From positions 1 through 38,435 of the forward strand of contig JAKOSN010000053.1 of NCBI GenBank assembly GCA_029777335.1: DNA of 38,435 bases. Reading direction: 5' to 3'. Numbering within the stretch: the stretch's first letter is position 1; each line of letters opens with the position of its first letter. The notes beneath the pieces are model-generated. The model saw only the letters and a list, made by a program, of their open reading frames with translations. It had not been told where the DNA came from and searched no databases. Shown piece by piece: positions 1,032 through 2,393 of the stretch. The position numbers and the translations under genes are program-made. This DNA comes from Planctomycetota bacterium (GTDB lineage Bacteria > Planctomycetota > Planctomycetia > Gemmatales > Gemmataceae).

Positions 1032-2393
1032 TCAGGGTTTGCCTGGTTTATCGGGCTTGGTTTTCTCTTCCTTTGGGGGAGGAGCGAAGACATTTTCCCG
1101 TTCGAGCGGAAGCTGGAAGGCGTCGGCGAAGCGTGTCATGTAATTGCACCACGAGGTGTACCAGATGAGATCAAGCGCACGCTCCGGACCAAACGTCTGC
1201 ACCAGTGCTCGGACATCCCTGGCGTGAACCGCAGCCGGGCTTTTTGAGAGTTTGTGAGCAAACTCGAATGCCAGGCGTTCGTGTGCGGGGAACCCACTCC
1301 AGTCGCCACTCGCCAGTTGACTGGCTCGCGCCTTGATTTCCTGCTCTTTCAGGCCCGCGACCGCGAGCCCCATTTCACTGTGCCCCATTCAGTAGAAGCA
1401 ATCGTTGGTGCGTGTGACCACCCAGAACACCGACCCCGAGAACACGCGATTGAACTGCGCTTCGCTTTGAAAGGCACGTAAACATTCAAACCATGCGCGC
1501 GTTAATTCCGGCTGGAATCCCATGCTCACCGTCATCCAGACAATCTGTTCTGCCTGGCGTTTGGCGGAAGGGGGTAGTTTTGCAAACTGCTTCTTGTCCG
1601 GCAAGGAGATGCGGGGAGCACGGTTTTTTTGCTCCTCCAGACGTTGGAGAACCATGTCAAACCCCTGTTTCCCCCAGTCGATTTTCACTCCTTGCAGAGG
1701 ATCGACTTTGCCCACCGGCCCCTCCAGTGAAGGTCGCCTGGGAGACTTGATCGCCGTTCGTTTGGCGGGATCAAGACCGTAATCGTGGGGGGGAATCGGT
1801 CCTTGCGGCTCCACCTCCACCCCCAGGGCGAGGATGATTCGACCGTGAAAATTGGCATAGGCCAGGGTGTGGACCATCGCAACCACCTTGTCCGGTCCAA
1901 ATCGGCGGAGGAGATCGGCCATCTCCGCATCGGTGACGGTGGAGGCCGCCCGGGTCATCTTGCGCGCAAAAGCAAGAAGCGTGCGATCATCGGCAGACAA
2001 TGTAGCTGGATCGCCGGCCAACTTTTTCAGATCAGCCTCACTCATCCCCGCTCGGCGCAGATCGGCCTCGGCGTAGCGTTCGGCGTAGACACTCCCCAGC
2101 GTATGCGCTGCCATCCACCGCAATTTCCCGGCAAGAAGGGGTGGGAGGGGATTTCGAGCGCGATGAAGGTAATCCAGTTCCAGCATCGCCCCGGTTGTCC
2201 TGGGGAGCGGCTTCACCAGCACGCGCGCCCAGGCCGGCAAGGGAGGATTTTTCCGCGGCAAAAGGCTCCACGCCTCGTCGTCCTGACACGCAGGCAACGG
2301 AGGAGCGTCTGGAACGGGTTTTTCCGCGTGCGCCCCGCCGACTCCCGGAAGGAGCAAGGCCAGAGCGAGGACCATGGGAATTCCGCGTGGCAT
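1032..2393 (-). CDS. Exported double CMD-domain (AhpD-like) protein, probable selenoprotein with C-x-x-Sec
   Basis: One reading frame is interrupted only by TGA at 1389-1391; read through, it gives 453 residues. Residues 1-23 are a signal peptide (MPRGIPMVLALALLLPGVGG...). Residues about 65-195 form a first CMD-like domain that has lost its cysteines (GSVYAERYAEADLRRAG). Residues about 265-430 form the second CMD domain, whose active site reads TRTNDCFY-U-MGHSEMG: Cys332, Sec335, His338. In CMD/AhpD proteins this place holds a CxxC pair plus His that reduces peroxides or acts as a thiol relay. The TGA falls exactly on the second cysteine, and coding continues for 118 residues to a TAA. The stretch after TGA folds as a SECIS-like hairpin. 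I chose ATG 2393 (AGGA 9 bases upstream); TTG 2399 in the same frame is possible. Alternatives are a nonsense mutation or two separate genes, but the exact position of the TGA argues against both. The substrate is unknown. Confidence 0.82.
1351..1370 (-). promoter_or_regulatory. Bacterial SECIS-like hairpin
   Basis: On the minus strand, bases 19-38 after the TGA form an 8-bp stem (two G-U pairs, rest Watson-Crick) closed by the tetraloop GGUC at 1359-1362. The core is GCUCGC-GGUC-GCGGGC. Known bacterial SECIS elements lie inside the coding region just after UGA, have an apical loop about 16-37 bases downstream and carry G or GG followed by U in the loop; E. coli fdhF has AGGUCU. Here the loop starts 27 bases after the UGA. 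The stem was paired by hand; no folding program was run. Confidence 0.7.
1389..1391 (-). other. In-frame TGA, proposed selenocysteine codon
   Basis: The TGA sits between TAC (Tyr) and ATG (Met) in TGC TTC TAC TGA ATG GGG CAC. It occupies the resolving-cysteine place of the CxxCxxH active site of the CMD domain. A single base change from TGC or TGT would also make it, so a nonsense mutation has to be excluded by comparison with relatives. Confidence 0.78.

Follow-up and report, generated by a model that had tools for sequence, protein, structure and literature searches.

A probable two-domain CMD/AhpD-like selenoprotein, predicted to be exported, with a Cys-x-x-Sec site in planctomycetes

CMD/AhpD-like selenoproteins with a CxxU motif, in which selenocysteine (Sec, U) stands at the second cysteine position, have been in print since 2005 (PMC1088965, PMC2398784 and the review table of PMC13188914). 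We have analyzed a gene of this kind in a 38,435-nucleotide stretch of DNA from a Planctomycetota bacterium (contig JAKOSN010000053.1 of assembly GCA_029777335.1), hereafter the window. The gene contains an in-frame TGA that we read as a probable Sec codon, and its product is predicted to be an exported protein of two fused AhpD-like domains. The CxxU proteins of the Sargasso Sea and Global Ocean Sampling (GOS) surveys share with it a PF02627-type superfamily, Sec at the second Cys and a bacterial Sec insertion sequence (SECIS) directly 3' of the codon. The three sources list their CxxU entries by domain and, in the portions available, mention no exported two-domain planctomycete form. The preliminary description of the locus had mentioned AhpD-like selenoproteins from metagenome surveys and had suggested that a two-domain exported form with Sec at the second cysteine is undescribed. 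This holds only in part: the CxxU kind is known, and of the exported two-domain Sec form we have found no description in the open-licence literature searched.

Named protein families come close without including the window protein. The NCBIfam model NF041238 (AhpD_rel_CFYUT, alkylhydroperoxidase-related (seleno)protein, 357 positions; version of June 2026) has CFYU in its name, and its profile positions 230-338 align with the C-terminal domain. However, the window protein scores 31.4 bits against an equivalog cut-off of 175, its motif is CFYUMGH where the model's name gives CFYUT, and none of the 99 genomes that we have searched has a match above the cut-off. NF053654 (GroundWater_YciW) and TIGR01926 peroxid_rel (~180 positions), each one domain long, both match the C-terminal domain, with 26.5 bits against a cut-off of 310 and 44.8 against 81.8, respectively.

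The Sestrins, exemplified by human Sestrin2, consist of two fused AhpD-like domains, an arrangement also seen in the structure model of the window protein. Unlike Sestrins, the window protein carries its catalytic pair in the C-terminal domain, with Sec, and is predicted to be exported. The Sestrin C-terminal domain holds a DDYDY-type GATOR2-binding hinge (PMC11429811); neither DDYDY nor WSLAEL occurs as a string in the window protein, and its model places helix 333-345 at the active site. A profile search returned no Sestrin chain at E up to 1, and a Pfam search no Sestrin family at E up to 10, with filters that drop weak matches. In 2024, fusions of two AhpD domains in prokaryotes were put forward as analogues of Sestrins (PMC11429811). 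Those from Corynebacterium and Comamonas pair a two-Cys C-terminal domain with an N-terminal domain lacking these residues, an arrangement comparable to that of the window protein; they are described with cysteines, and the available text contains none of the terms selenocyst-, selenoprotein, signal peptide or secreted. Planctomycete selenoproteins have also been reported (PMC4807772). The available main text mentions neither AhpD nor carboxymuconolactone, and its selenoprotein list (S9 Table, two planctomycetes) lies outside this check, so that an earlier mention there is possible. What is new here is a large, predicted exported, two-domain variant of the known CMD/AhpD CxxU kind, spread across planctomycetes and far below the cut-offs of the related NCBIfam models.

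The gene occupies positions 1032-2393 on the minus strand and reads from 2393 to 1032 as 454 codons: 334 residues starting with ATG, a TGA, 118 further codons and a terminal TGA at 1034-1032. This confirmed that a single TGA separates two same-frame segments, which form one frame of 453 codons. An AGAGGA resembling a ribosome-binding site lies 9 nt 5' of the ATG (2403-2408, minus) and favours this start over an alternative TTG at 2399. TTG numbering, used below where indicated, runs two above ATG numbering, with Cys332/Tyr334/His338 becoming 334/336/340. The in-frame TGA (codon 335, 1389-1391, minus) stands in the context D-C-F-Y-TGA-M-G-H-S-E-M, with Cys332 (1398-1400, minus) as the first residue of the CxxU pair and His338 (1380-1382, minus) completing CxxUxxH. 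Hence, the preliminary description was right to place the TGA at the second Cys of a CxxCxxH site, and its Cys332/Sec335/His338 numbering is correct. The GC content at third codon positions is almost equal before and after the TGA (0.66 and 0.64), and in the 3' part the other two frames contain 2 and 3 stops.

Relatives of the window protein were found in 46 of the 99 genomes, its own included. A contig scan with the single protein gave no match, and an alignment-based scan with two patterns gave 105 relatives, of which 80 were kept, at 78 loci. One of the patterns requires a Cys codon and thus favours Cys forms, TGA forms being reachable only through the other, which lies 3' of the TGA. Nearly all records of the 78 loci are titled Planctomycetota or families inside it; only four are not, namely L091, L099 and L128, which are unclassified "bacterium" records, and L148, from a bin with the title Byssovorax. 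The L148 gene has the same score as L147 on a Fimbriiglobus contig, and the bin is perhaps misassigned. TGA forms occur in records titled as strains rather than metagenome-assembled genomes, namely Gemmata sp. IIL30 (L097) and Aquisphaera insulae JC669 (L141).

Whether relatives have Cys or Sec at residue 335 had been set as a check, and only these two were found. In 87 rows aligned without a residue filter, the position is TGA in 45 and TGC or TGT in 42, a ratio that is no estimate of abundance because of the bias of the scan towards Cys forms. The claim that only U or C occurs rests on these rows and on those of the 99-genome search set given below, both free of a residue filter, since a regular expression used in the folding test described below allowed nothing else. 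Cys332, Tyr334 and His338 do not vary among the 87 rows (45/45 Sec and 42/42 Cys), and the loci of the TGA rows share ~40-57% identity with the window protein. Each of the 45 Sec-type genes has, over the aligned part to about residue 440, exactly one in-frame TGA, always at codon 335, which excludes chance and bears out the earlier argument that the codon is no random nonsense mutation. Of the 87 rows, 8 Sec and 3 Cys have extra in-frame TGAs, which lie only at gene ends (444-450, TTG numbering). The 99-genome search set (loci L014-L086) gave 27 U and 14 C among the 41 rows scoring at least 600; it shares genomes with the contig-scan set (L087-L164), and the two are not independent. Its alignment took 56 loci, not all matches; L068, L081 (twice) and L083 belong to a more distant family with a different stretch aligned at the site, and several other rows do not cover it.

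A predicted SECIS hairpin follows the TGA at 1353-1368 (minus), with a 6-bp stem and a GGUC loop at 1359-1362, 26 nt after the TGA. The loop presumably resembles that of E. coli fdhF. The hairpin is present in the window gene and in all 45 Sec rows, usually as GCUCGC-GGUC-GCGGGC, and its stem forms in none of the 42 Cys rows. In the 99-genome search set it was found in 28/28 Sec genes and 0/16 Cys genes, with a mean minimum free energy of -8.4 kcal/mol for the 16 nt over the 28 Sec genes. The bSECIS model (PMC13188914) asks for a loop of 3-9 nt with G in its first two positions, a stem of 4-16 bp, a spacing of 16-37 nt and a minimum free energy of at most -7.5 kcal/mol; the 4-nt loop, 6-bp stem, 26-nt spacing and folding energy fall within every one of these limits.

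The hairpin also constrains the codons that encode it. Among 110 testable columns, each with one dominant degenerate amino acid, hairpin codons 345-349 (TTG numbering) show the five strongest synonymous constraints: CTC in 44 of 45 Leu, GCG in 46/46, GTC in 46/46, GCG in 45/46 and GGC in 40/46, against gene-wide frequencies of 0.29, 0.41, 0.46, 0.41 and 0.47, respectively. In 44 distinct rows the stem is 100% paired, and two of the six pairs have changed on both sides. The covariation score was matched by 0 of 500 shuffles and dropped when partners were shifted; relatedness can inflate such counts, and three of the six pairs are invariant.

Among the 99 genomes, 24 contain the exact pattern TGA-21N-CTCGCGGTCGCGGG, with 34 occurrences in total, and none contains its reverse. 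Twenty-six occurrences belong to the window-gene family, seven to a sister family whose motif is C[FY]YULGHQ, and one is a stray; the genome of the window has a single occurrence, at the window gene. The family provides a strict SECIS that can be used as a search query. The stray match (G010:C1:158701-158738; L186, L210) lies in a genome without a SelA match and is probably due to chance. The sister loci L041, L067-L070, L072 and L075 carry a TGA with the CTCGCGGTCGCGGG hairpin behind it; in L071 and L073 the TGA is followed by other sequence, so their SECIS would have to differ.

The part of the gene after the TGA is under purifying selection. We have compared 46 Sec genes (1035 pairs) and used the 534 pairs with an upstream synonymous rate (dS) below 2 for ratios to the nonsynonymous rate (dN). 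Median dN/dS was 0.43 before the TGA and 0.29 after it, with values below 1 after the TGA in 533 of the 534 pairs. Many dS values are high; close pairs concur, L124 and L131 having dN 0.02 and dS 0.48 after the TGA.

The machinery for Sec insertion is encoded in the same genome. The presence of selA, selB, selC and selD had been named as a check, and all four were found: SelA (E 7.8e-145), SelB (386.6 bits), SelD (E 3.1e-110) and a tRNA-Sec with anticodon tca (71.9 bits). Of 26 genomes with a TGA form, 24 have SelA, compared with 2 of the 7 in which all forms are Cys (p 0.0016); a tRNA-Sec of at least ~62 bits was found in 21/26 and 2/7, respectively (p 0.016). The 26 comprise 21 genomes with the window-gene family and 5 with the sister family only. 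This table was compiled by hand from the 99 genomes, others being omitted (e.g. G011, with a partial match); SelA was counted if full-length or split over contigs (G068), and the tRNA threshold is stricter than the 47 bits of Rfam.

Other putative selenoprotein genes were seen alongside. The SelD of this genome (L077, G000:C356:4838-8267) has itself an in-frame TGA in ASCAG-U-AGK and is of the Sec type; C217 carries another SelD-like gene, which has no TGA. The same genome holds a candidate single-domain AhpD-like selenoprotein (L206, G000:C20:62909-63496, minus) with CFYUVESH, that is, the AhpD-like Sec-x3-His spacing. This paralogue has TGA in the 12 loci read of 25 matches (L195-L206) and Cys in G098, G092 and G091 (L207-L209); G098 and G092 have no SelA match, and G091 has only a distant one (104 bits).

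The reading that we propose accounts for the open frame, for TGA alternating with Cys, for the codon constraint and compensatory pairs of the hairpin, for the purifying selection and for the machinery genes; its probability is, in our estimate, about 0.9. TGA335 would be read as Sec by the bacterium's own SelA, SelB, SelD and tRNA-Sec through the predicted SECIS 26 nt downstream, and the product would be a redox enzyme of full length and two domains, predicted to be exported, with the active site Cys-Phe-Tyr-Sec-Met-Gly-His. If this is confirmed, planctomycetes would have a selenium-dependent extracytoplasmic redox enzyme of Sestrin architecture.

Several observations weigh against this reading. 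When 60 nt from the codon were folded, Sec and Cys genes had mean z values of -0.07 and -0.34 (p 0.18), with no Sec excess; this shuffle test (44 regions) was judged blunt, its codons being drawn from the same regions, and the targeted hairpin tests were used for that reason. No Rfam family reached its cut-off in the window. Two genomes with a TGA form have no SelA match: G017 (95% complete), with SelB present and a best tRNA-Sec of E 2.6e-7, and G059 (59% complete), with no SelB above cut-off. G003, G034 and G047 have SelA and a best tRNA-Sec of only 50-54 bits; this exceeds the Rfam gathering score of 47 but overlaps with the scores of secondary matches elsewhere; G034 also has no SelB above cut-off. 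Random nonsense does exist in the family, since the Cys-type gene L063 (G098:C2:3802271-3804629), in a genome without a SelA match, has an in-frame TGA at Trp position 413 that looks like ordinary nonsense or an error. As regards the fold, the window protein scores 22.9 bits with Pfam CMD (PF02627), just below the gathering cut-off of 23; with E up to 10 allowed, the model matches 17 of 23 members of the family. Moreover, the AhpD-like protein YP_296737.1 has a C-x2-C-x3-H site of Cys86, Cys89 and His93 with an upstream Glu74 (PMC4674687). The window site is C-x2-U-x2-H, with the His one residue nearer to the second position and Gly in place of the relay Glu. Twelve residues before the first Cys, Glu is found in 21/45 Sec and 34/42 Cys rows.

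The predicted fold is a Sestrin-like fusion of two AhpD-like domains, with human Sestrin2 as its closest match. The model places an N-terminal domain at residues ~31-199 (1797-2303, minus), without a CxxC pair, and a C-terminal domain at ~240-430 (1104-1676, minus), with CxxUxxH at the start of helix 333-345; it has the all-helical AhpD-type domain. Residues 1-23 (2325-2393, minus), ending in A-H-A, form a signal peptide as predicted by eye, and the N-termini of 12 relatives look like signal peptides too, in agreement with the signal peptide initially described; the protein is accordingly labelled as predicted to be exported. The model confidence (pLDDT) is below 50 at residues 3-22 and 24-26.

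In the mechanism that we propose, the selenolate of Sec335, in the first helix turn and near His338 in sequence, would attack an organic hydroperoxide or a disulfide. Cys332 would resolve the intermediate to a selenylsulfide, and the enzyme would cycle between selenylsulfide and selenol-thiol outside the cytoplasm. His338 and Tyr334 may aid proton transfer, and an extracytoplasmic thiol donor would reduce the selenylsulfide. These steps transfer the established chemistry of AhpD-type and Sec enzymes to this protein by analogy. Peroxidase activity is the function that we would guess first: alkylhydroperoxide reductases are the nearest enzymes, and cumene hydroperoxide is reduced by Sestrin2 (PMC4674687).

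The Sec may instead serve another chemistry, in an exported thiol-disulfide oxidoreductase or an enzyme acting on organic substrates, e.g. by reductive dehalogenation as in Bmp8. We regard this as unlikely, though a serious alternative. The CMD/AhpD fold hosts several chemistries, the debrominase Bmp8 is among the matches, and the altered His spacing relative to AhpD-like proteins (PMC4674687) and the missing Glu leave room for a different reaction. Against it stand the alkylhydroperoxide reductases among the closest fold relatives and the Sestrin2 activity mentioned above; the scanned window genes indicate no other substrate.

Sec insertion competes with termination in bacteria, and the TGA could be a conditional stop. 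The 334-residue product, comprising the N-terminal domain and part of the C-terminal one, would then be the usual form, and Sec read-through a minor, selenium-dependent one. The reading frame before the TGA is indeed long and conserved. Nevertheless, the median dN over the 1035 pairs falls from 0.61 before the TGA to 0.45 after it, the Cys relatives have no stop at the site, and according to the model a truncated product would lack the active-site helix 333-345 and the later helices. We consider a conditional stop very improbable.

That the gene is a pseudogene or an assembly error, with a Cys codon mutated or misread to TGA and the protein truncated, is scarcely credible. The codon is one base away from TGC and TGT, databases hold a truncated form, and a stray in-frame TGA occurs in one Cys-type relative (L063, above). 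However, neither mutation nor misreading fits the recurrence of the same TGA in 45 of 87 rows, at ~40-57% identity and with the hairpin each time, nor the selection on the 3' part, nor the single occurrence of the TGA-hairpin pattern in this genome. Still more remote is an ordinary sense codon without selenium: a TGA=Trp code would also leave the frame open, but the window gene ends in TGA itself, the residue aligns with Cys and never with Trp, each Sec-type gene has one in-frame TGA before its end, and the genome encodes the whole Sec system. We have rejected both of these readings, sequencing error included, and plain termination with them.

A maximum-likelihood tree was built with 86 of the 88 rows (the 87 and the window), duplicates or short rows being removed, and requires two Sec/Cys changes. 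Thirty-nine Cys rows form one clade within the Sec rows, and one gene of L107 is a separate Cys row adjoining two Sec rows; this gene lacks both the loop and the stem of the hairpin. Under midpoint rooting, and the root is not proven, Sec would be ancestral and lost twice. Because Sec-to-Cys changes occur inside one family, and no Cys form examined has the hairpin, the reasons for retaining or losing Sec become testable. We offer a wider joint reading tentatively, and with more doubt than belief. The family, with the window protein as its type member, would be an unnamed planctomycete group of exported, Sec-bearing Sestrin counterparts acting as extracytoplasmic organic-hydroperoxide reductases, with Sec ancestral and at least two Cys origins accompanied by SECIS decay; a lone-Cys N-terminal domain joined to an active C-terminal domain would show how the Sestrin architecture could plausibly have arisen.

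Routine annotation misses selenoproteins because gene finders treat UGA as a stop, and this family is systematically mis-annotated. A protein database search found 523 homologues. Among the 120 listed, 96 end at CFY, 1 at CIY and 23 continue with Cys, so that 97 stop exactly before the Sec codon, every listed Sec-type entry being cut there. The window protein is one of them, stored as a 334-aa form (P0002). The long homologues among those listed have no Pfam partner other than CMD. One homologue ending at CFY (P0067) has an N-terminal extension of more than 300 residues before the CMD part, without a Pfam match.

Of 79 loci compared, the window included, 31 have a DUF1559 pseudopilin-like gene and 19 a small lipoprotein-like gene. 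Neither adjoins the window gene, and planctomycete genomes abound in DUF1559 genes, so we draw no function from the neighbours. At L106, L109, L116, L124, L131, L140, L159 and others, a DUF1559 pseudopilin-like gene and a small lipoprotein-like gene are followed by at least one CMD gene, and some open frames in such loci reach ~850-950 aa. Elsewhere in the window (11406-16031, plus strand), a cytochrome/DUF1549/DUF1553 protein of 1040 aa is followed by a DUF1501 protein of 483 aa.
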